Below the pieces are notes generated by a model. The model made no database searches. It saw only the letters and a list, made by a program, of their open reading frames with translations, and had not been told where the DNA came from. Positions 29,655-45,676 of a DNA stretch of 64,000 bases are shown here, one piece after another; the first letter of the stretch is position 1; every line of letters starts with the position of its first letter. Source of the DNA: Phaeocystidibacter luteus (lineage in GTDB: Bacteria; Bacteroidota; Bacteroidia; Flavobacteriales; Schleiferiaceae); NCBI RefSeq assembly GCF_008933115.1, contig NZ_WBVO01000001.1:186001-250000 (forward strand), in the 5' to 3' direction. The position numbers were made by a program, and so were the translations under genes.

Positions 29655-30854
29655 ATGGAAGAGCATAGAATTCTTTCCATCATCGGACGAGAATCTGAAT
29701 TGTTTCAATCTGATATCGATAACTGCGAAGGCGAATTGTCAAGTCAGGTCGAGCGAAGCTCATTCTTAATTCTCGGTGGTGCTGGGTCTATAGGTCAGGC
29801 CGTGACTAAGGAAATCTTCAAAAGAAATCCTAAAAAGCTCCACGTTGTCGACATCTCCGAGAACAATTTGGTTGAGTTGGTTAGGGACATCCGTAGTTCC
29901 TTCGGCTATATTGATGGTGATTTTCAAACTTTCGCACTCGATATAGGATCTTGGCAGTATGATGCCTTCATTCAGGCAGATGGGAAGTACGATTATGTGC
30001 TAAATCTTTCAGCTCTCAAACATGTGAGAAGTGAGAAGGATCCATATACACTTATGAGAATGATTGAGGTTAATGTCCTCAATACGGTTAAGACAATCAA
30101 ACAAAGTATGGAGTGCGGAGTGAAGAAATACTTCTGCGTTTCTACGGATAAGGCTGCAAACCCAGTGAATATGATGGGTGCGTCTAAGCGCATCATGGAG
30201 CTATTCCTGAACTATTACAGTCAGTTTCTTCCTATTTCTACAGCCCGATTTGCGAACGTTGCCTTCTCAGACGGTTCATTGCTACACGGATTCAATCAAC
30301 GAATCCTGAAGAATCAACCTATTGTAGCACCGAATGATGTCAAGCGATATTTCGTGATTCCAAAGGAAGCAGGTGAACTTTGTATGGTCTCATGCTTACT
30401 TGGAGAAAATCGAGATATTTTCTTCCCACAGCTTTCCGAAGATTTTGGCTTAGTGAGTTTTTCCGAAATCGCTGAACGCTATCTCCACGATCGTAACCTT
30501 GAACCTCAACTATGCTCATCAGAAGATGAAGCGAGAAGCCTCGCGTCAGCTAAAGTGAAGGGTGACAAAGCTTGGCCATGTTTGTTTACCAAGAGCGACA
30601 CTACTGGCGAAAAGCCCTATGAGGAGTTTTATACGGGCGATGAGAAGCTCGATCTGGACACCTTTGTGAACCTTGGTGTCATCAAAAACGAACTAGGATT
30701 TGATAAAGATAAATTGGACCACTTTGAGGCGGTGATTACGGATTTAAGAGCCAAAGGAGAATGGTCTAAAGACGAAATAGTAGCACTCTTTCACGAGATG
30801 ATCCCAGATTTTCAACACGAAGAGAAAGGGAAATATCTTGATCAAAAAATGTAA
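29655..30854 (+). CDS. legB: NDP-GlcNAc 4,6-dehydratase, legionaminic acid pathway (LegB-like)
   Basis: A 399-residue soluble member of the CapD/PglF dehydratase family, making the 4-keto-6-deoxy sugar that starts the legionaminic acid pathway. The Rossmann motif is LILGGAGSIGQAVTKEIF, then VLNLSALKHVRSEKDPY, and VSTDKAANPVNMMGASKRIME. The usual catalytic Tyr of SDRs is Met in this family (MMGASK), which is normal here. It lacks the membrane domain of PglF. It is followed by legC, legH, legI, legG, ptmE and legF in pathway order. With PtmE present the true substrate could be GDP-GlcNAc, as in Campylobacter. Confidence 0.88.
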   Translation: MEEHRILSIIGRESELFQSDIDNCEGELSSQVERSSFLILGGAGSIGQAVTKEIFKRNPKKLHVVDISENNLVELVRDIRSSFGYIDGDFQTFALDIGSWQYDAFIQADGKYDYVLNLSALKHVRSEKDPYTLMRMIEVNVLNTVKTIKQSMECGVKKYFCVSTDKAANPVNMMGASKRIMELFLNYYSQFLPISTARFANVAFSDGSLLHGFNQRILKNQPIVAPNDVKRYFVIPKEAGELCMVSCLLGENRDIFFPQLSEDFGLVSFSEIAERYLHDRNLEPQLCSSEDEARSLASAKVKGDKAWPCLFTKSDTTGEKPYEEFYTGDEKLDLDTFVNLGVIKNELGFDKDKLDHFEAVITDLRAKGEWSKDEIVALFHEMIPDFQHEEKGKYLDQKM

Positions 30855-30874
30855 ATCTATCTCAGGGTTAGGCA

Positions 30875-32035
30875 ATGAGCGATACGGTATACAGCAAGGC
30901 AAAAGAGTTTGTAACAGCGGTGAAGGACCTCATTCCAGCAGAGTCTTTCATTCCGTTGCACCCGCCTGTGTTTAACGGTAAGGAAAAGGAGTACCTGATA
31001 GAAACGGTAGATTCTACTTTCGTTTCTTCCGTTGGCCCATTCGTTGACAAGGTGGAAACGCAGCTCGCAAGCCTAACAGGTTGCAAGAAAGCCGTGGCGG
31101 TCGTTAACGGTACGGCAGCACTTCATACCGCTCTAAAACTTGCTGGTGTAATGAGGGAAACTGAGGTCATCACTCAATCCCTTACGTTTATTGCCACAGC
31201 CAACGCCATTTCATACCTAGGTGCCCTACCTGTTTTCTTGGACGTTGACCTCGATACAATGGGGTTGTCCCCATCTTCTGTACGCGCGTTCTTGGAAGAG
31301 TTCGGAGAGATTCGCGAGGACGGATGTTACAACAAATCAACCGGACGACGGATTTCCGCGTGTGTGCCAATGCACACCTTCGGGTTTATGACTCGTATTG
31401 AGGAATTAATCCGTGTTTGTCGGGAGTACAATATTCCTGTCGTTGAAGATGCGGCCGAAGCTTTGGGAAGCTCTTATCGTGGCAAGCCTGCCGGGAGCTT
31501 TGGTGAAATTAGTGCGTTGAGCTTCAATGGAAACAAAGTTGTAACCGCCGGTGGTGGTGGCGCTATTCTGACCACGAATGACGAATTAGGCTCGAAGGCA
31601 AAGCACATAACAACTACGGCGAAAGTCCCACATCGCTGGGAGTACAGACATGACGAGATAGGTTTTAACTATCGAATGCCGAATGTGAATGCGGCATTGC
31701 TAAGCGCGCAGTTGGAATCGCTTGACGATATATTGAAGCACAAGAAGCAATTGTTTTCCGCATATGTTTCCTCATTTGAGGCGATGGGACTCAAATTGAA
31801 TCAACCACCTGCAGAAAGCGAGTGGAACTATTGGTTAATGAGTGTGGAACTCAACTCATTTGAAGAGAGAAATGCATTCCTCGAGTATACTAACTCCAAT
31901 GGGGTTATGACAAGACCTATTTGGGAGTTGATGCATAGAATGCCAATGTTTGAGCATTGCTATAAAGACGACCAGAAGAATTCAGAGTACTTGGAAGCTC
32001 GAATCGTAAATATCCCTAGCAATGCAAGAGTCTAA
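30875..32035 (+). CDS. legC: LegC-type PLP aminotransferase
   Basis: A 386-residue DegT/DnrJ-type aminotransferase that adds the 4-amino group to the 4-keto-6-deoxy-HexNAc nucleotide. Seen are VNGTAALHTALKLAGV, VEDAAEALGSSYRGKPAGSFG, the PLP Lys in LSFNGNKVVTAGGGG, and the start FIPLHPPVFNGKEKEYL, characteristic of LegC rather than PglE. Its last 14 bases overlap the acetyltransferase gene, implying coupling. A second, PglE-like aminotransferase sits at 50414. Confidence 0.9.
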   Translation: MSDTVYSKAKEFVTAVKDLIPAESFIPLHPPVFNGKEKEYLIETVDSTFVSSVGPFVDKVETQLASLTGCKKAVAVVNGTAALHTALKLAGVMRETEVITQSLTFIATANAISYLGALPVFLDVDLDTMGLSPSSVRAFLEEFGEIREDGCYNKSTGRRISACVPMHTFGFMTRIEELIRVCREYNIPVVEDAAEALGSSYRGKPAGSFGEISALSFNGNKVVTAGGGGAILTTNDELGSKAKHITTTAKVPHRWEYRHDEIGFNYRMPNVNAALLSAQLESLDDILKHKKQLFSAYVSSFEAMGLKLNQPPAESEWNYWLMSVELNSFEERNAFLEYTNSNGVMTRPIWELMHRMPMFEHCYKDDQKNSEYLEARIVNIPSNARV

Positions 32036-32645
32036 GTACATACTTGTAGGCTACTCAGGTCACGCTTATGTAGTGGCAGAAGCTGCTATTGAGATGGGCT
32101 TGAAGCTTTCTGGATATACGGAAAGGCAGGAGTCCACTCATAATCCATTTGATTTGAGTTATTTAGGATTTGAAGGGGCAGAAGACTTTGCCTATAACGG
32201 CAGTGGACATTCATTCATTCTTGGTATAGGAAGTAATTCCATACGCACTAAAATAGCCAAGTTCCTGAGCGATAAGGGAGGTGACTTGAGCACAGTAATT
32301 CACCCCGCAGCTTCTGTTTCAAAAATGTCGACTATCGGTTCGGGTAGTTTTGTCGCTAGAGGCGCATCTATCAACCCACTTGTTGAGGTTGGAAAGAATT
32401 GCATTATAAATACTTCCAGTTCAATCGATCACGAATGTATTATTGGTGACGGGGCGCACATTGCTCCTGGAGCAGTTCTAGCCGGGAATGTAAGCGTTGG
32501 AAAAGAATCTTTTATAGGTGCTAATTCGGTGATAAAAGAAGGTGTTACCATAGGTGATAATGTCATAGTCGGTGCTGGCTGCGTAGTCACCAAGGATTTA
32601 GGAGACAATTCAAAATGGGTGGGTAATCCAGCCAGACCATTATAA
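32022..32645 (+). CDS. legH: LegH/NeuD-type sugar N-acetyltransferase
   Basis: A 207-residue left-handed beta-helix acetyltransferase that should acetylate the 4-amino group made by LegC, giving the diacetylbacillosamine nucleotide. The N-terminal Rossmann-like part has LVGYSGHAYVVAEAAIEMG; hexapeptide repeats run from about residue 90 (IHPAASVSKMSTIGSGSFVARGASINP) to the typical end DNSKWVGNPARPL. The presumed catalytic His is in SIDHECIIGDGAHIAPG. It overlaps legC and is followed by legI after 5 bases. Confidence 0.88.
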   Translation: MQESKYILVGYSGHAYVVAEAAIEMGLKLSGYTERQESTHNPFDLSYLGFEGAEDFAYNGSGHSFILGIGSNSIRTKIAKFLSDKGGDLSTVIHPAASVSKMSTIGSGSFVARGASINPLVEVGKNCIINTSSSIDHECIIGDGAHIAPGAVLAGNVSVGKESFIGANSVIKEGVTIGDNVIVGAGCVVTKDLGDNSKWVGNPARPL

Positions 32646-32650
32646 GCACT

Positions 32651-33688
32651 ATGAAGAAGAACAAACAACATACGCTCATTATTGCTGAAGCTGGGGTGAA
32701 CCATAACGGTGATATGTCTAAGGCACTTCAGCTCATTGATGCTGCGGCTGAAGCTGGAGTGGACATAGTGAAGTTTCAGACTTTCAAAGCCGATACACTT
32801 GTAAGTCCAAAAGCGAAGAAGGCTAACTATCAGCAGGATAGTCTTCCTGATGACGATCAGTCTCAGTACAAGATGCTCAAGAAGCTTGAGTTGTCCGACG
32901 ATGACCACAATGAGCTTATCGAGCATTGTTCGAAGAAAGGGCTTCAGTTTTTTTCTACTGCGTTCGACACCGAAGGATTGAAGTATTTGAATTCCTTGGG
33001 CTTTGAGCAATTCAAAGTGCCAAGCGGTGAAATCACCAATTACCCATATCTGCGAGAGCTTGCTTCTTTTGGTAAGCCAGTTATTATTTCTACAGGAATG
33101 TCGTCAATGGACGATATTGAGGCAGCCCTGAATGTACTTACCCAAGCGGGGATGTCGAAAAGTGATATCACGGTTCTCCACTGCAATACGCAGTATCCGA
33201 CGCCGATGGAGGATGTTAATCTATTGGCAATGAACCATATCAAAGATACCTTTGATGTAAACGTTGGATATTCTGATCACACCATGGGAATTGAAGTTCC
33301 TATTGCGGCCGTAGCTCTCGGTGCGACAGTTATTGAAAAGCATTTTACACTAGATAGAGGTTTACCTGGACCAGATCATAGTGCTTCCTTAGAACCGCAT
33401 GAATTGAAGCAAATGGTACAGGGTATTCGCAATATTGAACTAGCCATTTCTGGAACAGGAAAAAAGGCCGTCTCAAAAAGCGAGTCTCAGAATATAATTC
33501 CTGCTCGTAAGAGTATTCACGTGCGCCGTCAACTTCAGGCTGGCGAAGTTATCAAGGAGGAAGATTTGATTCCACTTCGTCCAGCTGTTGGAATGTCTCC
33601 TATGGAATGGGAAAATGTAGTAGGGAAGAAGGTAGTTGACACAATTGAGGCCTTCGAGCCTTTGCACGAATCAAACCTGGCTGAATGA
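32651..33688 (+). CDS. legI: N,N'-diacetyllegionaminate synthase
   Basis: A 345-residue NeuB-family synthase condensing a 6-deoxy-di-N-acetyl-mannosamine-type sugar with phosphoenolpyruvate. The TIM barrel begins LIIAEAGVNHNGDMSKALQLI and includes VDIVKFQTFKAD, PSGEITNYPYLRELASFGKPVIISTGM, VLHCNTQYPTP, GYSDHTMG and the metal/catalytic region VIEKHFTLDRGLPGPDH. A full C-terminal SAF domain is present (from RKSIHVRRQLQAGE). The SAF domain and neighbours separate it from the second synthase at 40776. It overlaps legG by ATGA. Confidence 0.93.
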   Translation: MKKNKQHTLIIAEAGVNHNGDMSKALQLIDAAAEAGVDIVKFQTFKADTLVSPKAKKANYQQDSLPDDDQSQYKMLKKLELSDDDHNELIEHCSKKGLQFFSTAFDTEGLKYLNSLGFEQFKVPSGEITNYPYLRELASFGKPVIISTGMSSMDDIEAALNVLTQAGMSKSDITVLHCNTQYPTPMEDVNLLAMNHIKDTFDVNVGYSDHTMGIEVPIAAVALGATVIEKHFTLDRGLPGPDHSASLEPHELKQMVQGIRNIELAISGTGKKAVSKSESQNIIPARKSIHVRRQLQAGEVIKEEDLIPLRPAVGMSPMEWENVVGKKVVDTIEAFEPLHESNLAE

Positions 33689-34812
33689 GCTCTGCAGTAA
33701 AAAACATAGCAGTTCTTACCAGCTCAAGGGCGGATTATGGCATCTACAAACCATTATTGGATGTCTTGGCTGCTGACAATGCGTTCAACCTGCAGATGAT
33801 TGTCTTCGGTTCGCATCTTTCGGAGGTGACTGGATATACATTGCAACACATTGAACGTGATGGGTTTACAGTGATTGAGAAAGTAGACTCTATCTTACTA
33901 AACGACGATCCACTTGCTAATTCCACCTCCACAGCGCTTACGGCAATGAAGTTCGCGGATGTATGGGCTCGTTTGTCTGGTTCGGTGGATCTAGTACTGG
34001 CCTTGGGTGACCGCTTCGAGATGTATGCGGCGGTAATGGCCTCGGTGCCATTTGGTATACCTATCGGTCACTTACATGGCGGAGAAACGACCCTCGGAGC
34101 AATTGATAATGTATATCGAGATTGTATAACACTTGCTTCGACAGTACACTTCACATCAACCAAGCCTTACGCTGCGCGTGTTTCGGCACTTGTAGGTTCT
34201 GAAAAGCATATTTATCCAGTTGGCTCTCTCAGTTTAGATGGTCTCTCGGATTTAGAGCTCGACACAGTGGAGGAATTCAAGGCAAAGTGGGGTATAGATC
34301 TAGATCAACCAACGGTTGTAGCAACGTATCATCCTGAGACGGTTAACTTCAACTCTATTGATGAACACGTGGCTGAGTGGATCAAATCCATCAAAGAACT
34401 GCTAAAGAAGTATCAGGTAATCCTTGGTCCTCCGAACCTTGATACTCACGGCTCACGGATTAGAGCCGAGTACAGCACTCAGCTCGCCAATGAACCAAAT
34501 CTTTTCATCATTGAATCATTGGGTAAAAAGAGCTATTTCACAGCATTGAAGCACTGTTCGTTTGTAATTGGAAACAGTTCAAGTGGTATTATTGAAGTGG
34601 CCTCCTTTGGTAAGTATGCCGTGAATGTCGGTAACCGACAAGAAGGAAGAGCATGCGGTGAGAATGTATTACACACACCTTTTGATTCGAATCGTATTCT
34701 GCAAAAAGTAGAGTATATCGAAAGTCAAGGGTACAGCTATAAAGGAGAGAATATCTATGAACGTCGCAATGTAGCGCAGTCTATTCGCGACATTCTCAAA
34801 CGAATCCTATGA
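33685..34812 (+). CDS. legG: Hydrolysing UDP/GDP-diNAcBac 2-epimerase (LegG, NeuC-like)
   Basis: A 375-residue enzyme of the UDP-GlcNAc 2-epimerase family that releases the nucleotide and inverts C2, giving the substrate for LegI. Seen are IAVLTSSRADYGIYKPLL, DLVLALGDRFEMYAA, IPIGHLHGGETTLGAIDNVYRD, VVATYHPETVNF and FVIGNSSSGIIEVASFGKYAVNVGNRQEGR, all NeuC-type signatures. It is coupled to legI and ptmE by 4-base overlaps on both sides. The order in the operon is legI before legG, although the enzymes act in the opposite order. Confidence 0.93.
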   Translation: MSSAVKNIAVLTSSRADYGIYKPLLDVLAADNAFNLQMIVFGSHLSEVTGYTLQHIERDGFTVIEKVDSILLNDDPLANSTSTALTAMKFADVWARLSGSVDLVLALGDRFEMYAAVMASVPFGIPIGHLHGGETTLGAIDNVYRDCITLASTVHFTSTKPYAARVSALVGSEKHIYPVGSLSLDGLSDLELDTVEEFKAKWGIDLDQPTVVATYHPETVNFNSIDEHVAEWIKSIKELLKKYQVILGPPNLDTHGSRIRAEYSTQLANEPNLFIIESLGKKSYFTALKHCSFVIGNSSSGIIEVASFGKYAVNVGNRQEGRACGENVLHTPFDSNRILQKVEYIESQGYSYKGENIYERRNVAQSIRDILKRIL

Positions 34813-35861
34813 GAACTGAATTTCAGCCTCACATCATCAGTAGTTCTAGCACGGCAAGAGATGCTTTGCGTTCACTTAGCACATTGCCAGATGGCGCGGT
34901 ACTGAATCTATTCGTCACAGATGACAACGGTAAGCTCGTAGGAACTATCACTGATGGGGATATCAGACGTGGATTGTTGAACAATCTGGAGATTTCGGAT
35001 TCGGTCGAACAGTACATGAATAAGAACTTCAAGTTCTTTGTTGAAGACAGCAACAATAGCAGTTTACATAAGGAGTATGCGAAGCTTGGGCTTGAATTAA
35101 TTCCCGTGCTTAGCAAATCCGAAGAACTCGTTGACTTCGTAGATTTGACGCGAACGAAGGCTGCGCTTCCTATGGCTGCGCTTTTGATGGCAGGTGGAAA
35201 AGGAGAAAGATTGCGTCCGCTGACGGAGAACATTCCTAAACCCATGTTGCTAGTTGGTGACAAGCCAATCATAGAGCACAACATCGATCGCTTGATCAAG
35301 TATGGTGTCAAGGATATCTATATCAGTGTGAAGTATCTCAAGGAGAAAATCACTGAGTACTTTGGAGATGGGTCATCAAAGGGAATCAGAATCCATTACA
35401 TAGAGGAGGACAAGCCGCTGGGTACTGTTGGTGCACTTTCTTTGATAGAGAACTGTTCCAAGAAGACAATCCTCTTGATGAATTCGGATATTCTCACCGA
35501 TATAGATTTTGAGGATTTTTACAACCATTTCATTGAGAGTAAGGCGAGAATGTCCGTTGCAAGTATTCCTTACAACGTGAATGTTCCATATGCAGTGCTT
35601 CGCACCGACAGTACGCGTGTATCTGGCTTTGAAGAAAAGCCTAGATATACCTATTACTCAAATGGGGGAATCTATTTGCTCGATGCGAAGTTGAAAGATT
35701 TGGTTCCTGTAAACGAGCATTACAACGCCACAGATTTAATGGAATCCATGATTGGTGAGAATGAATTAGTTCATTATCCATTGATTAGTTATTGGTTGGA
35801 CATTGGCAAGCACCAAGACTTCATCAAGGCTCAAGAGGATGTAAAACACCTGTTTTTATGA
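34809..35861 (+). CDS. ptmE: CBS-domain sugar nucleotidyltransferase (PtmE-like)
   Basis: A 350-residue protein with two N-terminal CBS domains (about 1-120, including GTITDGDIRRGLL) and a C-terminal nucleotidyltransferase domain starting ALLMAGGKGERLRPLTENIPKP. In Campylobacter jejuni PtmE makes GDP-GlcN from glucosamine-1-phosphate, the entry point of a GDP-linked legionaminic acid route. CBS domains probably sense adenine nucleotides. It overlaps both legG and legF by 4 bases. The acceptor sugar cannot be verified from sequence; an NDP-mannose role is the alternative. Confidence 0.88.
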   Translation: MRTEFQPHIISSSSTARDALRSLSTLPDGAVLNLFVTDDNGKLVGTITDGDIRRGLLNNLEISDSVEQYMNKNFKFFVEDSNNSSLHKEYAKLGLELIPVLSKSEELVDFVDLTRTKAALPMAALLMAGGKGERLRPLTENIPKPMLLVGDKPIIEHNIDRLIKYGVKDIYISVKYLKEKITEYFGDGSSKGIRIHYIEEDKPLGTVGALSLIENCSKKTILLMNSDILTDIDFEDFYNHFIESKARMSVASIPYNVNVPYAVLRTDSTRVSGFEEKPRYTYYSNGGIYLLDAKLKDLVPVNEHYNATDLMESMIGENELVHYPLISYWLDIGKHQDFIKAQEDVKHLFL

Positions 35862-36568
35862 GCACTCGGAAGTTATTTCTGATACCAGCACGTGCTGGAT
35901 CCAAAGGATTGCCTGGCAAGAACACAAAAGTTCTTGGCACAAAGCCGCTCATTCAATACAGCATTGAATTCGCTCAGACATGTTCGGAGGAGGGCGATGT
36001 GCTCTGTGTATCATCAAACGATGAAGAAGTACTGAAGGTGTGCGAGAACCTAGGCGTTACGCCTCCATTTGTGAGACCTGAAGAACTCGCTACTGATACG
36101 AGCTCTTCGATGGACGTCATTTCACATGCCATCAATTTCTACAAAGAAAGAGATGTTCATTTCAGTGAAATAGTTCTACTTCAACCAACCTCTCCATTCC
36201 GATTGGAGTCGGATTTTAGAACAATGGTTGAGCTTTATAAGAAGAGCAACTGTGACATGGTTGTAAGTGTGAAGGAAGTAAAGGAGAACCCTTATTTCAA
36301 TCTCTTTAAACAGGATTCTGAAGGATACTTGAAGGGATTTGTTGACGCCGAGAATAGGGTAACAAGAAGACAAGATGCTCCATCTGTCTATGCCTATAAC
36401 GGATCTATTTACCTCTTCAATTGCAATGCTTTTGAAGCTTTGAATGGATTGGGATTTGAGAAAATTGTCAAGTATGTCATGCCTGACTCTAGGAGTGTTG
36501 ACATCGACACATTGATAGATTGGAATATCGCTGAGTTTTATCTGAAACAATCGAATGAAAACAATTAG
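35858..36568 (+). CDS. legF: CMP-N,N'-diacetyllegionaminate synthetase
   Basis: A 236-residue CMP-sugar synthetase activating legionaminic acid for transfer. The nucleotide-binding start LFLIPARAGSKGLPGKNTKVLG is followed by VLLQPTSPFRLESDF, the RRQDAP motif, AYNGSIYLF and the end SVDIDTLIDWNIAE. The start is ATG at 35858, overlapping the ptmE stop (ATGA); a longer in-frame start at 35792 would lie inside ptmE and add residues before the conserved first strand. Unlike the second synthetase at 42499 it has no HAD domain. Confidence 0.93.
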   Translation: MSTRKLFLIPARAGSKGLPGKNTKVLGTKPLIQYSIEFAQTCSEEGDVLCVSSNDEEVLKVCENLGVTPPFVRPEELATDTSSSMDVISHAINFYKERDVHFSEIVLLQPTSPFRLESDFRTMVELYKKSNCDMVVSVKEVKENPYFNLFKQDSEGYLKGFVDAENRVTRRQDAPSVYAYNGSIYLFNCNAFEALNGLGFEKIVKYVMPDSRSVDIDTLIDWNIAEFYLKQSNENN

Positions 36569-37400
36569 AGTAATTCCTAGGCTCGATATTAAGGGCCCCA
36601 ACTTGGTTAAGGGTATTCACCTTGAAGGCCTTCGCGTGCTTGGTCGACCATCTGATTTCGCTAAGTATTACTACGAAAACGGAGCGGATGAGTTGATTTT
36701 CATGGACGTGGTTGCTTCCCTTTACGGTAGAAACAGTTTGCACGACATCATTTCAGAAACTGCAAAGAGCATCTTTATCCCAATTACAGTAGGAGGAGGA
36801 CTTCGCTCCATCGAGGATATTAAATCCGTTTTGAGAGCCGGAGCAGATAAAGTTTGCTTGAACACCGCTGCAATTAATAACCCGGGGCTTATCGAAGAAG
36901 CTTCGAAGATATTCGGCTCTTCAACCATTGTGGTTTCCATCGAGGCTATTAAAGAATCAGATGGAAGATACCTAGCATATACGGACAACGGTAGGGAGTA
37001 TACTGGAGTTGATGCAATTGAATGGGCAAAGAAAGTCTGTGAGGCCGGAGCAGGTGAAATTGTAGTGACTTCTGTAGATCGTGAAGGAACGGGCGAAGGC
37101 TTCGACCATGAGCTCATCAAGCGTATTAATGAAGTTGTGACTATTCCGGTTGTTGCACATGGTGGCCCAGCGCATGCAGACCATGTGGTAGAAATGATCG
37201 AAGCAACTAATGCAGATGCGGTGGCGGTGGCGTCAGTGCTACATTACGAAGCCATTCAAAAGATTGATCACAACGTATCATCAAGTGAAGGTAACACCAG
37301 GTTCCTCGAAGAGAAACGTGGCTTTCATAAATTCGTTCCAACAGGTTTGAGCGAGTTGAAGGAGCGCATGAAGGAAAAAAATATACGAGTAAGGATATGA
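36555..37400 (+). CDS. HisF-like ammonia-using subunit for sugar amidination
   Basis: A 281-residue TIM-barrel protein related to imidazole glycerol phosphate synthase subunit HisF but in a polysaccharide setting. It keeps IPRLDIKGPNLVKGIHLEG and GGGLRSIEDIKSVLRAGADKVCLNT. The phosphate-binding loop reads VVAHGGPAHADH instead of the usual SGGxG, and the C-terminus is longer than in histidine-pathway HisF. With the HisH-like and WbpG-like genes that follow it forms the known trio that converts an acetamido group to acetamidino on a sugar, using glutamine-derived ammonia. No other histidine biosynthesis genes are near. It overlaps legF by 14 bases. Confidence 0.85.
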   Translation: MKTIRVIPRLDIKGPNLVKGIHLEGLRVLGRPSDFAKYYYENGADELIFMDVVASLYGRNSLHDIISETAKSIFIPITVGGGLRSIEDIKSVLRAGADKVCLNTAAINNPGLIEEASKIFGSSTIVVSIEAIKESDGRYLAYTDNGREYTGVDAIEWAKKVCEAGAGEIVVTSVDREGTGEGFDHELIKRINEVVTIPVVAHGGPAHADHVVEMIEATNADAVAVASVLHYEAIQKIDHNVSSSEGNTRFLEEKRGFHKFVPTGLSELKERMKEKNIRVRI

Positions 37401-38053
37401 GCGAGAAGAAAGTAGCTATTGTAGATTATCATTTGGGTAATCTCTTCAGCGTAATTCAGTCTTGTGAGAAAGTGGGAATCAACGCAGAGCTTTGCTCAAG
37501 CGGTGAGGATCTTCACAAGTACGATGCTATCATTCTACCAGGAGTAGGTGCTTTTGGGGAAGCCATGCAAAACATGCACGACCTCGGGTTGGTAGAGCCA
37601 CTTCGAAGCTTGGCTGCAGAAGGACGTCCGATTTTTGGCATTTGCCTCGGACTTCAGTTGCTGTTCACAGAGAGCGAAGAATTCGGCACCATGGAAGGTT
37701 TGGGACTTATCCCGGGGACGATCAAAAAGTTCAAAACCGAAGTTGAGGGAGTGAAATACAAAGTTCCTCAAATCTGTTGGAACGAAATTGAAGAAACTGC
37801 TGGACTTAATTGGGCAGATTCTCCGTTGTGCGACTTGGAAAGCAAGCAGTTCATGTACTTCGTACATTCATACTATGCGTCTCCGGAAGACTCAAAGTAT
37901 ACACTTACGGAAACTACTTACGGAGGTATTCGCTATACCTCTGCAGTCTTTTCACAACCCAATGTATTTGCAACGCAATTCCACCCGGAAAAAAGCGGTG
38001 AAGCTGGTTTGAGCATCTACAGAAATTGGGCAATTCAGAACAAACTAATCTAA
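37397..38053 (+). CDS. HisH-like glutamine amidotransferase subunit
   Basis: A 218-residue class I glutaminase that should release ammonia for the HisF-like/WbpG-like partners. The catalytic Cys is in FGICLGLQLLF and the His-Glu pair in ATQFHPEKSGEAG. The oxyanion strand region PGVGAFGEAM is intact, so it should be active. It overlaps the HisF-like gene by ATGA, and the amidotransferase follows after 16 bases. A role in histidine synthesis is unlikely because the rest of that pathway is absent here. Confidence 0.87.
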   Translation: MSEKKVAIVDYHLGNLFSVIQSCEKVGINAELCSSGEDLHKYDAIILPGVGAFGEAMQNMHDLGLVEPLRSLAAEGRPIFGICLGLQLLFTESEEFGTMEGLGLIPGTIKKFKTEVEGVKYKVPQICWNEIEETAGLNWADSPLCDLESKQFMYFVHSYYASPEDSKYTLTETTYGGIRYTSAVFSQPNVFATQFHPEKSGEAGLSIYRNWAIQNKLI

Positions 38054-38069
38054 TATTTACAATTACGCC

Positions 38070-39305
38070 ATGAGCGATTCAAACAAACTCGAAACGTACT
38101 ACGGCCTGCCGTCAGAAGTGAAGTTCTGTAAGCGCTGCGTCATGAGTAATCAACGTCCAACCTCGACCGTAGAGTTCAAGCACACCATCAACAGTGCTAA
38201 GGACACTATGAATTTTGATGAGGAAGGAATTTGCGATGCATGTAGAACTGCAGAGCAAAAGGAAAGCATTAACTGGGAAGAAAGAGAAGCTAAGCTGGTA
38301 GAATTGCTCGATAAACACAGAAGCAAAGACGGCAGCTACGATTGTTTGGTTCCTGGTTCTGGTGGTAAAGACAGTGCCTATCAGGCTCACATTCTCAAGT
38401 ACAAGTACGGAATGAACCCGTTGACTGTAACCTGGCCTCCAATTCTTTATACTGACTATGGGTACAAGAACTGGAAGAATTGGATTGATAGCGGATTCGA
38501 CAATATTTCTTGGAATAGAAACGGTAAGGTGATGAAGCTTCTAACCAAGCTTTCCATCGAGAACCTCTTTCACCCATTCCAAACCTTCATCCTAGGTCAG
38601 AAGAACCTCGCACCGAAAATTGCTGCTAAATATGGTATCAATCTCATTTTCTACGGAGAAAATGAAGCTGAATATGGCAACCCAATTGCGGATAACGAAA
38701 CTTCACTTAGAGATAAGTCGTACTACAGCTATTCTCACCTTGATGAAATCTACCTCGGTGGACTTTCGGTAGGGGAGATTATGCAGGACTATGACGTGAA
38801 GATGTCGGATATCCAGGCCTTTCTTCCAGCCTCTGTTGAGGAACTCGAGAAGTCTAAGGTTGAAGTGCACTACTTGGGATATTACCTCAAGTGGACTCCT
38901 CAAGAAGTGTATTACTACGCGGTAGAAAATACGGGCTTCAAGGCTAGACCATTCCGTACTCAAGGTACGTACAGCAAGTACAATAGTATCGACGATAAGA
39001 TTGATGACTTGCACTACTATACAACGTACATCAAGTTCGGTATTGGTAGAACGACATATGATGCTTCTCAGGAAATCAGAAACCGTCACATTACGAGAGA
39101 AGAGGCGGTAGCCTTGGTGAATCGATTTGACGGTGAGTTCCCAGACAGATATTTCGACGAGATCATGGCGTACTTGGATATCGATCCGGAGTACTTCAAG
39201 ACTGATTTGGCGGACAAATTCCGTTCACCACACCTTTGGAAGAAGGACAACGGAGAGTGGAAGCTTCGTCATAATGTAATGGGCACAGGCACAGACCAAG
39301 AGTGA
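38070..39305 (+). CDS. N-acetyl sugar amidotransferase (WbpG/PseA/PtmG-like)
   Basis: A 411-residue ATP-dependent enzyme that replaces the acetamido oxygen of a sugar with nitrogen to give acetamidino. Two Cys pairs at the N-terminus (FCKRCVMS and GICDACRT) fit a zinc site. The ATP-pyrophosphatase loop is LVPGSGGKDSAYQAHI, and ENEAEYGNP and TYSKYNSIDDKIDDLHYY are family segments. Located after the legionaminic acid genes, it most likely makes an amidino derivative of legionaminic acid, as PtmG does in Campylobacter. An alternative substrate is the bacillosamine-type or uronic sugar also made here. Confidence 0.88.
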   Translation: MSDSNKLETYYGLPSEVKFCKRCVMSNQRPTSTVEFKHTINSAKDTMNFDEEGICDACRTAEQKESINWEEREAKLVELLDKHRSKDGSYDCLVPGSGGKDSAYQAHILKYKYGMNPLTVTWPPILYTDYGYKNWKNWIDSGFDNISWNRNGKVMKLLTKLSIENLFHPFQTFILGQKNLAPKIAAKYGINLIFYGENEAEYGNPIADNETSLRDKSYYSYSHLDEIYLGGLSVGEIMQDYDVKMSDIQAFLPASVEELEKSKVEVHYLGYYLKWTPQEVYYYAVENTGFKARPFRTQGTYSKYNSIDDKIDDLHYYTTYIKFGIGRTTYDASQEIRNRHITREEAVALVNRFDGEFPDRYFDEIMAYLDIDPEYFKTDLADKFRSPHLWKKDNGEWKLRHNVMGTGTDQE

Positions 39306-40774
39306 AATCACTGAAAAGCATATTGCAGAGTAAAGGCTCAGGTGGATTCGCAAAGAGTTCAGCCGTCTACTTCGTGAATGATATTCTACAGAAGGCGACT
39401 GGTTTCATGCTTATCCCACTGTATACCGCATATTTCTTACCTGAGGAGTATGGGTTACTTTCTGTTATGGCCTTTGTTTTAGCACTTCTCGTAATTCTAG
39501 GCGATTTAGGACAAAGTGGGGCACTAGTCCGCTTTCATTTTATAGCTGAGAAATCGGGAGATTTTAAGTCGTACATAGCCTCTGCAGTACTTTTCATACT
39601 CGGTGTAAGCGCATTTCTGGTGATTGCCCTTTTCGGATTAGGGCCGTGGTTGTTCGACGTAGGTTTTAACAACATTAGCTTCTATCCGTACGGTGCAATT
39701 GTTACTGTAACCTTTATATTCTCCATTTGTAATCAGTTGTACTTGAATGTCCTACGGGCAAAAGGGGAGTCTGTACGTTATGGCATTCATTCCTTCTCTT
39801 TCTTTCTGCTGAACATTGGAGGGGCCATTTTGGCAATTGTAGTGTTTGATCTGGGGGTTATCGGAAAGCTGTCCAGTGCCTTGCTCGCAACTGCCGTCTT
39901 TGGCAGTATTGGACTTTTCTTCGTGACCCGCGGTGTAAACCTCTGGAAACAGTTTTCGAGATCCAGATTGAAGGAGCTTGTTAATTATGGACTACCAGCG
40001 GTACCGCATTTACTGGCTGCTATCATACTCAACCTTGCCGACAGGTATGTTATTGAGAGATATCACGATATGACCGAAGTTGGTCTTTACAGCCTTGCGT
40101 ATCAGCTCGGATCAATCATGCTGTTTGTGGCTTTGGCATTTGATAAGGCATGGGGACCGTTTTACTTCTCGAAGGCTGGTACTGAAAAGGGTGAAACACA
40201 GATTAATCAAATCGCCAAGTTGTTCTTGGTGGCGATTATGTTCATTTCATTCTTGATTGTCATCTTCATGGATGAGGTCTTCATGTTCATCGGCTCAGAC
40301 GCCTATCAGGAATCACTTGCCATCATTCCGCTTATTGCAGTGGGTCTCCTGTTCAAGGCCGCGTACTTTGTACCGATTAAGTCAATTCTGTTCAATAACT
40401 CAACCAAGGTAATCCCATTAATTACGGGCATTGCCGCGATTGTGAATCTAGGTCTGAATTTTCTCATGGTACCATCTATGGGAGGGTTCGGAGCAGCCTT
40501 GGCAACCGGTATTTCATACTTACTCATGTTTGTATTGGTTCTCGTCATTTCAAGACGATATACCTCGCTCAACTATCACGCTCCAAAGGTGCTCGGTGCC
40601 TTGGCGCTCATTGTGTTGGGCTATGTGTCAGTATTGTCTATCCAGCAAGCGGGAATCGACAATGCATTTGTGATGTTTCTGATCAAATGCGGGATTGTCG
40701 TGGTGATATTGATGGCATTAATTAAATCAAGAATTGTAACTAAGAACGAACTCATTAACCTTAAAAAAATCTAA
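39302..40774 (+). CDS. Wzx-type polysaccharide flippase 1
   Basis: A 490-residue multi-pass membrane protein of the MATE/PST flippase superfamily with about 14 hydrophobic segments, expected to flip lipid-linked repeat units across the inner membrane. The N-terminus has AVYFVNDILQKATGFMLIPLYTAYFLPEEYG, typical of these proteins. The start is GTG at 39302, overlapping the stop of the amidotransferase gene (GTGA). A second flippase gene lies at 58478, so the locus may export two different units or one may be specialised. Confidence 0.87.
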   Translation: MKSLKSILQSKGSGGFAKSSAVYFVNDILQKATGFMLIPLYTAYFLPEEYGLLSVMAFVLALLVILGDLGQSGALVRFHFIAEKSGDFKSYIASAVLFILGVSAFLVIALFGLGPWLFDVGFNNISFYPYGAIVTVTFIFSICNQLYLNVLRAKGESVRYGIHSFSFFLLNIGGAILAIVVFDLGVIGKLSSALLATAVFGSIGLFFVTRGVNLWKQFSRSRLKELVNYGLPAVPHLLAAIILNLADRYVIERYHDMTEVGLYSLAYQLGSIMLFVALAFDKAWGPFYFSKAGTEKGETQINQIAKLFLVAIMFISFLIVIFMDEVFMFIGSDAYQESLAIIPLIAVGLLFKAAYFVPIKSILFNNSTKVIPLITGIAAIVNLGLNFLMVPSMGGFGAALATGISYLLMFVLVLVISRRYTSLNYHAPKVLGALALIVLGYVSVLSIQQAGIDNAFVMFLIKCGIVVVILMALIKSRIVTKNELINLKKI

Positions 40775-40775
40775 G

Positions 40776-41651
40776 ATGGATTCTAAAAAAGCACCTGTAG
40801 TTATTGCAGAAATTGGATGCAATCACATGGGCTCAATGGAGCTTGCAAAAGAGCTCGTAACTGTAGCGGCTACCTTCTGTAAGGCCGATATCGTGAAGTT
40901 TCAGAAGAGAAATTCTAAGGAGCTTCTCACAGAAGAACAATACAACGCACCACACCCGAACCCGATTAACTCATTCGGTGACACGTACGGTGCACACAGA
41001 GAATTCCTTGAATTCGACAAAGAGCAGCACAGAGAGCTTATGCAATTTTGTGATGATATGAATATCGAATACAGTACTTCTGTATGGGATGTTACTTCAG
41101 CACGTGAAATGATTGAGCTCAACCCAAGAATGCTAAAGGTTCCTTCTGCATGTAACAACAACTTCGAGCTTCTCGGTGTGTTGGCAGACGAGTACGAAGG
41201 GGAAGTTCACCTTTCATTCGGTATGACTACTCACGAAGAAGAACAACAAGTTGTCGATTTCTTCAAGGAGAAGGGTAGAGCGAAGGATTTGGTGATCTAC
41301 AGCTGTACTTCTGGGTACCCAGTGCCATTTGAAGATATCTGTCTTCTCGAAATTTCTCGTTTGAAAGAAGCTTTCGAAAAGGATGTGAAGGCTATTGGTT
41401 TCTCTGGACACCACCTCGGAATCGCTGCTGACATTGCTGCTATCACCTTGGGTGCTGAGTATGTTGAGCGTCACTACACGCTAGACAGAACCTGGAAGGG
41501 AACAGATCACTCTGCTTCACTCGAACCAGATGGCATGAGAAAGCTTACTCGTGACGTGAAGAATGTGTTCAAGGCTCTAACTTACAAGAGCAAGGAAATT
41601 CTTCCTATCGAGCAAGTTCAGAGAGACAAGTTGAAGTGGAGAGAACAATAG
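40776..41651 (+). CDS. Second NeuB-family nonulosonic acid synthase, lacking the SAF domain
   Basis: A 291-residue NeuB-type TIM barrel: VVIAEIGCNHMGSMELAKELV, ADIVKFQKRNSKELL, LKVPSACNNNFELLGVL, LSFGMTTHEE, YSCTSGYPVPFEDICLLEI, and VERHYTLDRTWKGTDHSASLEPD. It ends at KWREQ and so lacks the C-terminal SAF (antifreeze-like) domain that closes the active site in most sialic acid synthases. It differs clearly from LegI in this locus. With the CMP-synthetase/phosphatase fusion at 42499 it suggests a route through a phosphorylated sialic-acid-like intermediate (Neu5Ac-9-P or Kdn-9-P type). The substrate is inferred. Confidence 0.85.
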   Translation: MDSKKAPVVIAEIGCNHMGSMELAKELVTVAATFCKADIVKFQKRNSKELLTEEQYNAPHPNPINSFGDTYGAHREFLEFDKEQHRELMQFCDDMNIEYSTSVWDVTSAREMIELNPRMLKVPSACNNNFELLGVLADEYEGEVHLSFGMTTHEEEQQVVDFFKEKGRAKDLVIYSCTSGYPVPFEDICLLEISRLKEAFEKDVKAIGFSGHHLGIAADIAAITLGAEYVERHYTLDRTWKGTDHSASLEPDGMRKLTRDVKNVFKALTYKSKEILPIEQVQRDKLKWREQ

Positions 41652-41652
41652 G

Positions 41653-42471
41653 ATGATTAAGAAGATTGTCAAAAAAGCAAAGAGTGTCCTCCTGAAGTCT
41701 ACTTCAGAGCAGGTATTCTTTGTTTCCTATCCTAAGACAGGAGGGACTTGGCTTAAGTTCCTCCTGAATAGATTCTTCGTCCTTCATTTCGACCTCGGAG
41801 AGGAGAACTACTCAGTCGATTTAGAGAAGATCCGAATGCTATCATCGCTCGTTCCAGAAGTAGTGTGGACGCATGAGGATGCCTATCTAATCAAGGAATC
41901 AGGAACGGTGAACCCAACCCCTGAGGCTATGCTCAATCGCAAGGCGCCGATTGCTCCCTACGACAAGTGTATCTTCTTGGTTCGAGATCCACGTGATGTT
42001 GTTGTCTCTTATTACCATCAGGTTAATAAGCGATCTAAAACGACATTCTTTTCTGGCTCAATTGATGATTTTGTTCTCGACCCGGTGTACGGAATCGAAC
42101 GCGTTCTCAGCTATTATAAGCTTTACGAACAAACGCATCATCTCTATCCAAATTTCTGTTTGGTGCAGTACGAAGATTTGCTTGTGGAGACTCAAAGAGA
42201 GCTGACTCGCGTGCTTGAGTTTATAGGTATTCGCCACTTCAACGAAGCGCACTTAGAAAGAGTGGTTTCAGAGGGGCAGGCCGATAACATGAGAAAGTTG
42301 GAGAAGTCTAAAGCTGTCAGTGGGATGAATTCATTCGGAAGCGACAGAGATAGCCTTAAAGTGAGAAAGGCAAAGACTGGATCTTTCAAAGAAGAACTTC
42401 TTCCTGAAACAGTTGAAAAAATGAATGAAATCATCGAGAAGTACGGCCATCCATTTGGATATGGTAAGTAA
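41653..42471 (+). CDS. PAPS-dependent sulfotransferase
   Basis: A 272-residue sulfotransferase moving sulfate from PAPS to an acceptor, here probably a sugar of the polysaccharide. The 5'-phosphosulfate loop reads SYPKTGGTWLK (about residues 25-35), the 3'-phosphate site RDPRDVVVSYY (about 111-121), and the C-terminal RKAKTGSFKEE resembles the RKG-DWK motif. It has no signal peptide, so it should act in the cytoplasm. It lies one base after the second synthase gene, between it and the CMP-synthetase fusion, which suggests that a nonulosonic acid or its neighbour sugar is sulfated. It resembles eukaryotic cytosolic sulfotransferases in motif layout. Confidence 0.88.
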   Translation: MIKKIVKKAKSVLLKSTSEQVFFVSYPKTGGTWLKFLLNRFFVLHFDLGEENYSVDLEKIRMLSSLVPEVVWTHEDAYLIKESGTVNPTPEAMLNRKAPIAPYDKCIFLVRDPRDVVVSYYHQVNKRSKTTFFSGSIDDFVLDPVYGIERVLSYYKLYEQTHHLYPNFCLVQYEDLLVETQRELTRVLEFIGIRHFNEAHLERVVSEGQADNMRKLEKSKAVSGMNSFGSDRDSLKVRKAKTGSFKEELLPETVEKMNEIIEKYGHPFGYGK

Positions 42472-42498
42472 ATGATGATTTAGAATTAGAGTATACCG

Positions 42499-43674
42499 AT
42501 GGAAGATTTGGGTAATTGTGTTGCCATTATCCCAGTTCGGGGGGGCAGTAAAGGCATTCCAGGAAAGAACATTAAATTGATGGCTGGAAGGCCACTCATC
42601 TATTATTCGCTACGAGCTGCGCTTGAAACGGATTCCATAGATGTAGTTGCTGTGGCTACAGACAGCGAAGAAATAGCTTCTGTCTGCAAAGCACTCTTTC
42701 CCAATTCTGCAAAGTTGATGATCTATAACAGATCTGAGGAATCCGCTACGGATACCGCAAGTACTGAATCCGTTATGCTCGAGTTTGCCGGAAAATATGA
42801 GTTTAATCAACTCATTCTGATCCAAGCGACTTCTCCTTTGGTTACCAGTAATGATCTTCAGTCGGCATGCACCAAGTTTAATGGTGGAGATTTCGGAGGC
42901 TTGCTATCCGTAGTTGAGCAATCGCGATTTTATTGGACGGAAGATGACAACGGCCATGGCAACCCCGTGAATTACGATCCACAAAACCGTCCGCGAAGAC
43001 AAGATTTCAGGCCGGGTTTCGTCGAGAATGGTAGTTTCTACATCACCACAAAGGAATCGCTGCTTCAGTCAAAGTGTCGAATTTCTCACCCTTACGCGCT
43101 TTATCCAATGAGGGTAGAAACGTATTGGGAAATCGATGATATGGATGATTGGAGAATCATAGAGTCAATTATCCGCAGTGAGAAACTCAATTCTCCAACA
43201 GAGCATCTGAGTAACATCAAGTTGCTCGTAATGGACTTTGACGGAGTTTTTACGGACAACAAGGTGATCGTCTTTCAGGATGGAACGGAAGCTGTTATCT
43301 GCGATAGAGGAGATGGAATGGGGTTAAGTACTGTCAAGAAGCTAGGTCTACCTCTCTTGGTTCTATCCAAGGAACGAAACAATGTGCTCGAGTCCAGATG
43401 CAAAAAGCTTGGGATTGAGTGTGTTTATAAGTTGGACGATAAGCTGACCTTTCTGAAGAATCGCTGCGAAGAGATGTCGATTTCACTCGATGAAGTTGCA
43501 TATGTAGGAAATGATATTAACGATATCCCGTGTCTCGAAGCCGTGGGATTAGGCATTGCGGTGGCGGACAGTCATCCCAAAGCTATTGCAGCGGCAGATC
43601 ACATCACTGAAGCCAATGGCGGCAACGGAGCACTTAGAGAGATATGTGACTTACTTGAACCTCACCTTAAATGA
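42499..43674 (+). CDS. CMP-sialic acid synthetase fused to a KdsC-like HAD phosphatase
   Basis: A 391-residue two-domain protein. Residues 1-225 form a CMP-nonulosonate synthetase (AIIPVRGGSKGIPGKNIKLM, LIQATSPLVTSNDL, RPRRQDFRPGFVENGSFYI). Residues 235-391 form a HAD phosphatase of the KdsC/C1.5 type (LLVMDFDGVFTDN with the nucleophile Asp, LLVLSKERN, DDKLTFL, YVGNDINDIPCLEAVGLGIAVAD). The same arrangement occurs in animal CMAS. It could dephosphorylate a nonulosonate-9-phosphate and then activate the sugar. It supplies the second CMP-sugar pool of the locus, distinct from LegF. It overlaps the next gene by ATGA. Confidence 0.9.
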   Translation: MEDLGNCVAIIPVRGGSKGIPGKNIKLMAGRPLIYYSLRAALETDSIDVVAVATDSEEIASVCKALFPNSAKLMIYNRSEESATDTASTESVMLEFAGKYEFNQLILIQATSPLVTSNDLQSACTKFNGGDFGGLLSVVEQSRFYWTEDDNGHGNPVNYDPQNRPRRQDFRPGFVENGSFYITTKESLLQSKCRISHPYALYPMRVETYWEIDDMDDWRIIESIIRSEKLNSPTEHLSNIKLLVMDFDGVFTDNKVIVFQDGTEAVICDRGDGMGLSTVKKLGLPLLVLSKERNNVLESRCKKLGIECVYKLDDKLTFLKNRCEEMSISLDEVAYVGNDINDIPCLEAVGLGIAVADSHPKAIAAADHITEANGGNGALREICDLLEPHLK

Positions 43675-44798: not shown

Positions 44799-45676
44799 TG
44801 TACAGATTAAAGGTTCTCTTGCATCGAGTGCTAGACATCTTTCCAGGACTATATGCACGCGTCCTATACAACGGTAAGAAGAGAACGAATGCGTCTATTC
44901 TCGAGGAGCTAAAGGCATCTCAAATTGCTGAAGATGTACTTTCATTAAAAACTCTTCCAATGAAAGGAGATACTTGCTTCATCTTGGGGTCAGGAGCAAG
45001 TGTGAACGATTTGGACAAGAGTGAATGGGAGATGATTTCCTCTAATTTCTCAATCGGATTCAACTTTTCCTTTCTGATGGAGCACGTGCCAGATTTATAC
45101 TTCATCGAGCTGGCTAAAGACGATAGGGGGTTAGCCTCTAAACTTATAGAACGCAAGGAAACTTATCAAAACGTCCCTGTCGCAATTAAAGGTTTGATAT
45201 CCTCATCTAAACTCGACTGGGCCAAGGATAAAATCAAAACATTGACTCGAGAGGTGGGCGCCAAAGTTATTATGGAATCAGCCCTACCTTCCACCAGCGA
45301 AGCCGCATTGAGAAAGGGGCTTCATCAATTATATAACCGCGGTAAGGTTGAACGTGACATGGATGTGCTCGTTCAAAGCAAGGCATCCATTTCCATGATG
45401 ATTGATATCGCAGCCAGACTAGGGTACAGGAAGGTTGTGTTGTTAGGTATTGACTTGCAAGGACCGTACTTTTACGAAGAAACTAATGAGGATGTAGAAA
45501 CGGGCCAAGAATCCGGTACACTTCTCATTCAAAGGGAATCTGCCTCAGAGATGAGCATTGCCCAAATATTAAAGATTCAATCTGAATTCCTTCAAGAAAA
45601 TAAGGGAGTTACAGTGTATGCTGGGTCTGTGAAATCATTGCTCAGAGAGTTCATGCCTATATTTTCGTTTGAATGA
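44798..45676 (+). CDS. Putative sialyltransferase-like protein (GT42/DUF115-type fold)
   Basis: A 292-residue cytoplasmic protein. The segment CFILGSGASVNDLDKSEW (about residues 60-77) has the layout of the CMP-binding start of Campylobacter Cst sialyltransferases and of DUF115/Maf proteins (GxGxSL-D pattern). Later IAARLGYRKVVLLGIDLQG matches the ALxxGYxxIYLxGIDF element of the same group. It follows the CMP-nonulosonate genes with a one-base overlap, so transfer of a legionaminic or sialic-type acid is the best guess. The catalytic residues cannot be assigned by eye. The family is not certain. Confidence 0.6.
   Translation: MYRLKVLLHRVLDIFPGLYARVLYNGKKRTNASILEELKASQIAEDVLSLKTLPMKGDTCFILGSGASVNDLDKSEWEMISSNFSIGFNFSFLMEHVPDLYFIELAKDDRGLASKLIERKETYQNVPVAIKGLISSSKLDWAKDKIKTLTREVGAKVIMESALPSTSEAALRKGLHQLYNRGKVERDMDVLVQSKASISMMIDIAARLGYRKVVLLGIDLQGPYFYEETNEDVETGQESGTLLIQRESASEMSIAQILKIQSEFLQENKGVTVYAGSVKSLLREFMPIFSFE

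Follow-up and report, generated by a model that had tools for sequence, protein, structure and literature searches.

Two predicted nonulosonic acid routes, to legionaminic acid and to Kdn, in one polysaccharide locus of Phaeocystidibacter luteus

We analysed a 64,000-nucleotide stretch of the Phaeocystidibacter luteus genome (contig NZ_WBVO01000001.1, positions 186,001 to 250,000; hereafter the window), which carries a polysaccharide locus with two sets of nonulosonic acid genes. It is likely that this locus supplies one surface polysaccharide with two nonulosonic acids in activated form, namely legionaminic acid and Kdn, the latter made from mannose-6-phosphate. The reading is built on gene content, catalytic and signature residues, phylogeny and genomic linkage, all of which were observed. 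At its center are NeuB2 (40776-41651), a NeuB-family synthase without a SAF domain, and a CMP-synthetase fused to a KdsC-type HAD phosphatase (42499-43674), both lying downstream of a full legionaminic acid set. Profile searches found the Leg genes and the second-route genes at the positions given here, all on the plus strand.

In the model that we propose, LegB, LegC, LegH, LegG, LegI and LegF, together with PtmE, would produce CMP-legionaminic acid, and a HisF/HisH/WbuX trio would probably turn the sugar into an acetamidino form. The second route would start with a type II phosphomannose isomerase encoded in the locus (27964-28314), which would convert fructose-6-phosphate to mannose-6-phosphate. 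NeuB2 would condense mannose-6-phosphate with phosphoenolpyruvate, giving Kdn-9-phosphate. This intermediate would be dephosphorylated by the HAD half of the fusion, and the CMP-synthetase half would activate Kdn to CMP-Kdn. The substrates and products, as well as the use of both sugars by downstream glycosyltransferases and a possible sulfation, are predicted from sequence. An initial annotation of this DNA had left the substrate of the second route open, and the evidence below narrows it to mannose-6-phosphate, in part through the isomerase gene. The genes which that annotation named are present; it had overlooked the isomerase, the trio (36555-39305) and a sulfotransferase (41653-42471).

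A SAF-less synthase family and its gene neighborhood

NeuB2 matched PF03102 at 230.9 bits and, as the initial annotation had stated, did not match SAF. Its structure model (mean predicted local distance difference test score, pLDDT, 93.5) is closest in fold to 6ncs (Z 34.9) and NmNeuB (Z 34.0), which places it in the NeuB family. We built an unrooted tree from 109 of 171 aligned rows (29 of 80 genome-contig loci and 9 of 20 short-frame loci). A 100/100 branch sets the 43 NeuB2-type rows apart from all others, and NeuB2 groups with neither LegI nor PseI; that it would fall outside both branches had been set beforehand as a check. The LegI of the window lies in a SAF-bearing clade of 26 rows (100/96), and a NeuC/LegG-like gene adjoins 22 of them, the window's included. 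A 97/84 branch has the rows classed as SAF-less all on a single side (59 rows), and a 99/90 branch does the same for the rows with an HAD within 2 kb (65 rows), whether or not they are NeuB2-type or bear SAF. The NeuB2 clade thus belongs to a larger, phosphatase-linked group of synthases. Several of the rows from the Protein Data Bank (PDB) have long branches, and long-branch joins were flagged by treekit; 6ncs and the other PDB rows carry no SAF class. By this placement, NeuB2 is a synthase family of its own, and the idea that it is a second LegI or PseI copy is rejected.

To define the spread of the family, we scanned genome contigs with exact peptide patterns, which gives a lower bound. From 87 relatives, 80 NeuB2 loci with 59-72% identity were kept. 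They come from Bacteroidota, Clostridia, Olsenella, Planctomycetota, Campylobacterota, Mycoplasmatota, Gracilibacteria and one gammaproteobacterium, or about eight phyla. Within the phylum of the window, 11 of 391 other genomes carry NeuB2 at 62-69% identity, and the next matches are at 40% or less. None of the eight PDB matches of NeuB2 is an entry named NANS.

We then aligned 165 NeuB-family proteins of the fetched loci (164 distinct, the stretch L136 being identical to L024 from Flavobacterium sp. SH_e) to LegI, and assigned the SAF class from the alignment; counts are given for distinct proteins where relevant. The length C-terminal to the barrel is bimodal, with either 13-27 or 64-90 residues. 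An HAD lies within 2 kb of 102 of the 119 distinct SAF-less synthases, and a NeuC/LegG-like epimerase in none. For the 45 SAF-bearing synthases, the corresponding numbers are 5 and 24. The sample includes 39 control loci, mostly NeuB-family matches in open frames of about 330 residues or more from the window's phylum, and the 20 short-frame loci were chosen for their shortness. The control loci L160 and L169 proved SAF-less and were entered as such.

The neighborhood of NeuB2 itself has a small common core. CMP-synthetase and HAD are fused (>330 residues) in 61 of the 80 loci, mostly adjoining the synthase on either side, and some loci carry them as separate genes. Any further gene cluster within 6 kb is present in at most 25 of these loci. 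Such a small core suggests that the substrate comes from core metabolism. A LegG-like gene is found at 10 kb or less from NeuB2 in a single one of the 80 relatives, a Planctomycetota metagenome-assembled genome (L042), and in none of the 13 loci from the window's phylum. L042 (2-12042) encodes LegI (cut at the locus end), LegG, PtmE, a LegF-like protein, HisH, HisF, two WbuX-like proteins, NeuB2 and the fusion. Their order is much as in the window, with other genes interspersed, which suggests transfer of a double module.

Some variants of this arrangement were also observed. In L146 (9347-11140) and L147 (7869-9614), CMP-synthetase, NeuB and SAF are joined in one protein, and a separate phosphatase with the signature residues E-R-K described below is encoded close by; this triple fusion would be another packing of the same pathway. 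A Gfo/Idh-type oxidoreductase (cluster 24, 8/80 loci) and an SDR protein (cluster 19, 10/80) recur near NeuB2, one or both being present in L005, L012, L042, L054, L056, L057, L058, L063, L064, L065, L073 and L077. Such enzymes may modify Kdn or else provide another precursor. A second SAF-less clade, with roughly 33-40% identity to NeuB2, exists in the window's phylum (L148-L152, L160, L169 and L193-L212). An HAD lies within 2 kb of 24 of its 27 genes, E-R-K is present in all 23 HADs checked, and a window-like CMP-synthetase is absent within 10 kb in the five loci checked. Against the Kdn-9-phosphatase model NF058599, whose cut-off is 180 bits, one HAD of this clade (L151) scores 161.

The CMP-synthetase/phosphatase fusion

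The initial annotation had described the protein at 42499-43674 as a CMP-synthetase fused to an HAD phosphatase, and both parts were recovered: CTP_transf_3 in a CMP-synthetase domain of residues about 5-228, and TIGR01670 (116.6 bits, cut-off 106.95) in an HAD domain of residues about 238-391. We compared its model (mean pLDDT 92.4) with solved structures. The top structure for the CMP domain is 9t4z, 'PpNeuA CMP-Kdn synthetase', with Z 29.8 and 42% identity over 219 residues, and the CMP-N-acetylneuraminic acid (CMP-Neu5Ac) synthetases show lower identities (mouse CMAS 36%, Vibrio 30%, meningococcal 27%). The phmmer scores concur, with 158 bits for the CMP-Kdn synthetase against 116 for the mouse enzyme. 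Among PDB entries, the nearest solved relative of this half is thus a CMP-Kdn synthetase, in whose name 'Pp' presumably stands for Prymnesium parvum. According to the excerpted text of PMC6200933, the P. parvum CMP-Kdn synthetase does not accept Neu5Ac and the Kdn-9-phosphate synthetase is specific for mannose-6-phosphate. The resemblance to animal CMAS pointed out earlier holds for domain order and fold; in score, CMAS comes behind the CMP-Kdn synthetase and bacterial phosphatases.

The HAD half retains its catalytic residues. Across 43 aligned fusions, there is no variation at Asp246 (the first nucleophile), Lys315, Gly337, Asp339 or Asn341, and at least 90% have Asp248. Exceptions are one fused HAD in which the second Asp is unreadable and one with Gly at the first Asp. 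For comparison, the PDB contains the Bacteroides thetaiotaomicron Kdn-9-phosphate phosphatase BT1713 (3e81) and its E56A and E56A/K67A mutants, whose sequences fix the positions. We take E56 and K67 to be determinants of substrate choice. E292, R300 and K303 of the window occupy the positions of E56, R64 and K67 of 3e81, and the D-D pair is likewise retained, so the HAD carries the full residue set of a Kdn-9-phosphate phosphatase. Among the HADs that phmmer retrieved with the window HAD as query, all 85 that lie within 3 kb of a NeuB2-type synthase (84 distinct) have E-R-K, as do all 29 near other synthases (28 stand-alone, one fused). Streptomyces avermitilis 3mmz also has E-R-K. Four solved KdsC-type proteins have R-R-A (3n07), R-R-T (7t35), R-R-S (3mn1) or R-R-E (2p9j) at these positions, and the genome's own KdsC-like protein has G-R-G. 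At the sequence level, these residues back the phosphorylated intermediate at which the initial annotation had hinted.

A Kdo-type phosphatase was also considered for this half and rejected. The HAD passes the TIGR01670 cut-off, but this subfamily is broader than Kdo, as the HAD of locus L184, which is above the NF058599 cut-off, passes too. The residues are of the Kdn type, with E and K where the four solved KdsC-type proteins have R and A/T/S/E. A separate KdsC-like gene is present on contig 6 (TIGR01670 127.4 bits; below the KdsC equivalog cut-off).

Mannose-6-phosphate supply and competing explanations

The 116-residue protein at 27964-28314 is a stand-alone type II phosphomannose isomerase of the cupin fold, with PF01050 at 129.4 bits (cut-off 23.6) and the cupin motifs retained in the alignment. 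It is the single PF01050 match above cut-off in the genome, a second one on contig 2 being below. PF01238 (type I phosphomannose isomerase), PF04131 (NanE) and PF00480 (ROK, which we take to be the family of NanK-type kinases) gave no match in the genome. The gene is two genes ahead of LegB and adjoins a UDP-sugar dehydrogenase gene, not NeuB2. In 59 relatives, PF01050 reached at least 78 bits in three and any strength in nine, and neither same-genus genome is among them. A GMP-like gene without a fused isomerase domain was found in 10/10 genomes tested (the copy of G046 being in two pieces with stops). Since relatives hold the GMP-like gene without a strong PF01050 match, the isomerase probably arrived with the locus.

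The same-genus genome G001 allows a direct comparison. It has a Leg set in the same neighborhood, with RmlC, RmlD and response-regulator genes in common, and the 20 kb covered there contain no relative of the isomerase, the WbuX trio, NeuB2 (beyond LegI) or the fusion (beyond LegF). In the whole G001 genome, the sole NeuB2 match is its LegI. Because this counterpart region is without them, the isomerase and NeuB2 look like additions to the locus of the window.

Linkage between NeuB2 and an isomerase gene recurs elsewhere. Of the 80 relatives' loci, 12 have a gene with CBS and phosphomannose isomerase domains no further than 10 kb from NeuB2, and in 10 of these the distance is at most 2 kb. These 12 comprise eight from Campylobacterota (L074 and L076 being from the same metagenome-assembled genome), three from Clostridia and one from Gracilibacteria, taxa to which the control loci are not matched, so that 12/80 is not a fair statistic of enrichment. 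Pfam confirmed CBS and PF01050 in all three of the 12 that were submitted, and the others were assigned by similarity.

Several observations weigh against a Kdn route of this kind. The HAD scores 94.5 bits on NF058599, below the cut-off of 180, and is 33% identical to BT1713. The genome's KdsC-like protein scores as well on the same model (99.1 bits), and for this reason the E-R-K residues are the only feature that separates the two proteins. An HAD that passes NF058599 (264.6 bits, L184) adjoins a SAF-bearing synthase, and so do the other nearest relatives of BT1713 in the fetched loci, with 60-70% identity. As BT1713-like HADs adjoin SAF-bearing synthases, the Bacteroides synthase BT1714 (AAO76821) is probably no direct relative of NeuB2, and the SAF domain appears compatible with a phosphorylated route. 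The E-R-K motif is at best a putative separator of Kdn-9-phosphate from Neu5Ac-9-phosphate. The top PDB sequence match of NeuB2, the 290-residue Leptospira chain 6ncs, has a long branch and is not part of the phosphatase-linked group. The isomerase gene is 12.5 kb upstream of NeuB2 and could feed GDP-mannose synthesis. PF01050 occurs within 10 kb in 0/13 NeuB2 loci from the window's phylum and in 0/39 control loci, and two genomes that carry NeuB2, G046 and G019, are without any match to PF01050. The linked isomerase is thus supportive but not required. From its residues and context, the HAD is predicted to work like a Kdn-9-phosphate phosphatase, and we do not file it as an NF058599 equivalog. 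The HADs with 60-70% identity to BT1713 are those of L158, L179 and L184.

One could imagine that NeuB2 acts on N-acetylmannosamine-6-phosphate (ManNAc-6-phosphate) as in animals, giving Neu5Ac-9-phosphate and then CMP-Neu5Ac. The domain order of the fusion is that of animal CMAS, a phosphorylated Neu5Ac pathway has been proposed for Leptospira in the accessible part of PMC3438082, and sialic acid synthases are somewhat promiscuous according to the excerpt of PMC6200933. We regard this route as unlikely. No NeuC/LegG-like gene lies within 2 kb of any of the 119 distinct SAF-less synthases, and the CMP domain is nearest to a CMP-Kdn synthetase. The initial annotation had seen neither a second NeuC-type epimerase nor a ManNAc kinase, and both absences stand: the second Epimerase_2 gene of the genome is on another contig, and ROK is unmatched in the genome, as is NanE. 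The lack of NanE and ROK matches weakens ManNAc-6-phosphate as a substrate of NeuB2. It is similarly improbable that NeuB2 uses another phosphorylated aldose to form an undescribed 3-deoxy-ulosonic acid. In the literature searched, no member of the NeuB2 clade has an assayed substrate, Gfo/Idh and SDR genes are near the cassette in some relatives, and the top-scoring Kdn-9-phosphate phosphatases accompany a different synthase clade. An activation domain of the CMP-Kdn type, an isomerase gene that the locus shares with 12 of the 80 relatives (10 kb or less from NeuB2 in the latter), and the link to Sinorhizobium fredii discussed below argue against such a sugar.

A further explanation, which is compatible with Kdn synthesis, is that the isomerase serves GDP-mannose and NeuB2 draws mannose-6-phosphate from general metabolism. 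The genome has a GMP-like gene (C22), the isomerase is its one clear phosphomannose isomerase, and its gene neighbors the UDP-sugar dehydrogenase rather than NeuB2. Nevertheless, relatives, including those of the same genus, have a GMP-like gene but no strong match to PF01050, and ten of the 80 loci have the CBS-isomerase gene within 2 kb of NeuB2; we consider this explanation possible, though doubtful. Finally, the second synthase and CMP-synthetase could be redundant legionaminic or pseudaminic copies, given that the superfamilies are identical. The two pairs of enzymes differ clearly, as had been noted from the start: NeuB2 and LegI share 31% identity over 276 residues, and the CMP-synthetase domain and LegF share 29%. 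Together with the tree, which sets NeuB2 apart from LegI and PseI, and a fused phosphatase with retained catalytic residues, this makes redundancy extremely improbable. Thus, Kdn made from mannose-6-phosphate is the product that we favor for the second route.

The legionaminic acid set, neighboring genes and known systems

The full legionaminic acid set claimed by the initial annotation was found at 29655-36568 by curated-model and domain matches. LegB, a nucleotide-sugar 4,6-dehydratase (29655-30854, PF02719), has 66-70% identity with counterparts in the Leg sets of three relatives. It is followed by the aminotransferase LegC (30875-32035; TIGR04181 510.5 bits, cut-off 420), the N-acetyltransferase LegH (32022-32645; TIGR03570 204.1 bits, cut-off 160.8), the legionaminic acid synthase LegI with its SAF domain (32651-33688; PF03102 and PF08666; TIGR03569 476 bits, cut-off 400) and the hydrolysing 2-epimerase LegG (33685-34812; TIGR03568 358.7 bits, cut-off 235.9). 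LegC, LegH, LegG and the synthase are thus above curated cut-offs in a single gene run, as expected of a legionaminic acid pathway, although the LegH, LegG and LegI models also span Neu5Ac counterparts. LegG is one of only two Epimerase_2 genes in the genome. PtmE (34809-35861) was assigned by its domain architecture alone, CBS and NTP_transferase (PF00571 and PF00483). The CMP-legionaminic acid synthetase LegF (35858-36568, PF02348) reached no curated equivalog; by inspection, the ATG at 35858 is a likelier start than the upstream TTG at 35792.

The HisF/WbuZ-like, HisH and WbuX-type amidotransferase genes come next (36555-39305). WbuX scored 366.7 bits on TIGR03573 (cut-off 203.2) and HisH 193.7 bits on TIGR01855, and the WbuZ model TIGR03572 gave 276 bits, slightly below its cut-off of 299.7. 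We assume that such trios convert acetamido to acetamidino groups, and the trio probably modifies legionaminic acid in this manner. A Wzx-type flippase (39302-40774, PF01943) precedes NeuB2. The sulfotransferase (41653-42471; PF00685 93.6 bits) is located between NeuB2 and the fusion, and a sulfated Kdn is possible. A sulfotransferase was observed within 3 kb of a NeuB2-type gene in two of 93 others (92 distinct), at 7567-8340 of L143 and 12000-12758 of L079. The two adjacent proteins at 43671-45676 are, by position, candidate glycosyltransferases for legionaminic acid or Kdn; they match no Pfam family above cut-off and nothing in the PDB up to E 1, and the first shows a weak likeness to TIGR04441 (27 bits, cut-off 150). 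On the other side of the locus, a 189-residue protein (27391-27960) lies between Wzc and the isomerase. A PaaX-like match is its only one and is weak, its relatives (54-56%) adjoin a UDP-sugar dehydrogenase in two other genomes, and it is possibly a regulator.

Kdn synthesis via synthase, phosphatase and CMP-synthetase is already known from B. thetaiotaomicron and P. parvum, and a cluster with a Leg set and a second phosphate-type synthase is already described for Leptospira in the available portion of PMC3438082. In the literature searched, which is incomplete, we found neither the SAF-less clade as a Kdn-type synthase nor E-R-K as a genome marker, nor a Leg and Kdn locus with its own phosphomannose isomerase. 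No announcement of a polysaccharide with both sugars was found among the listed titles and abstract openings, most subscription journals being outside this literature. The second pathway belongs to a widely shared two-gene cassette that database labels describe only as generic sialic acid genes. Annotation cannot separate Neu5Ac from Kdn synthases, as the excerpt of PMC10483923 states. It is conceivable, albeit rather speculative as a whole, that the SAF-less synthase and the E-R-K phosphatase form a common bacterial Kdn route across about eight phyla, hidden under 'N-acetylneuraminate synthase' labels, which stands here beside acetamidino-legionaminic acid with Kdn perhaps sulfated, and that loss of SAF follows the switch from free N-acetylated sugars to sugar phosphates. 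The combination of no SAF, no NeuC neighbor and an E-R-K phosphatase would be a cheap predictor applicable to public genomes. If it holds, Kdn is commoner on bacterial surfaces than reported, and P. luteus offers a defined example of a single polysaccharide locus with two different nonulosonic acids.

Among known systems, animal CMAS has the same order of CMP-synthetase and KdsC-type HAD (1qwj 36%; 3ewi 33%, Z 25.1). Its HAD domain is described as structural, whereas that of the window retains the catalytic residues. A CMAS C domain has been noted in some bacterial types in the excerpted text of a 2026 review (PMC13214540). Leptospira interrogans resembles the window in that one cluster combines a full Leg pathway with a second synthase for which a phosphorylated route was proposed; in that organism, the synthase has an added C-terminal domain of endonuclease-like type, and the proposed product is Neu5Ac (excerpt of PMC3438082). 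Serratia marcescens KL1/KL2 has a Kdn-containing capsule with a neuA/neuB pair, and loss of neuB in a KL1 strain removed sialic acid and capsule; unlike that of the window, its NeuB has a COG1082 domain (2241-bp open reading frame), and a fused HAD is unmentioned in the available text of PMC9000132. Prymnesium parvum provides PpNeuA, 42% identical to the CMP domain of the window, and a mannose-6-phosphate-specific synthase, but is a eukaryote in which a clear phosphatase homolog was not found, according to the excerpt of PMC6200933.

NeuB2-type genes are also present on rhizobial megaplasmids. On pSymB of S. meliloti, the synthase and the fusion (389 residues) are grouped with a putative glycosyltransferase and an annotated alpha-2,3-sialyltransferase, next to a capsular polysaccharide gene and an ABC transporter permease. 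The pair recurs on S. fredii pSfreNXT3c, with 62% identity for the synthase and 36% for the fusion, and E-R-K is retained. In both species, the NeuB2-family synthase and the fusion are side by side, and the 18.9 kb covered of each contain no relative of LegG, PtmE or LegB. S. fredii is reported to make a polysaccharide with 5-O-methyl-Kdn (Gil-Serrano 1998, as cited in the excerpt of PMC9000132); as the strains differ, this is a species-level link. The Kdn pathway of B. thetaiotaomicron differs from the window in its separate phosphatase, which is fused to the CMP-synthetase here, 33% identical and below the NF058599 cut-off, and the synthase of the window lacks the SAF domain borne by the synthases that adjoin the nearest BT1713 relatives in the fetched loci. 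Both systems nevertheless follow the same three-step logic, and their phosphatases share D-D, E56, R64 and K67.

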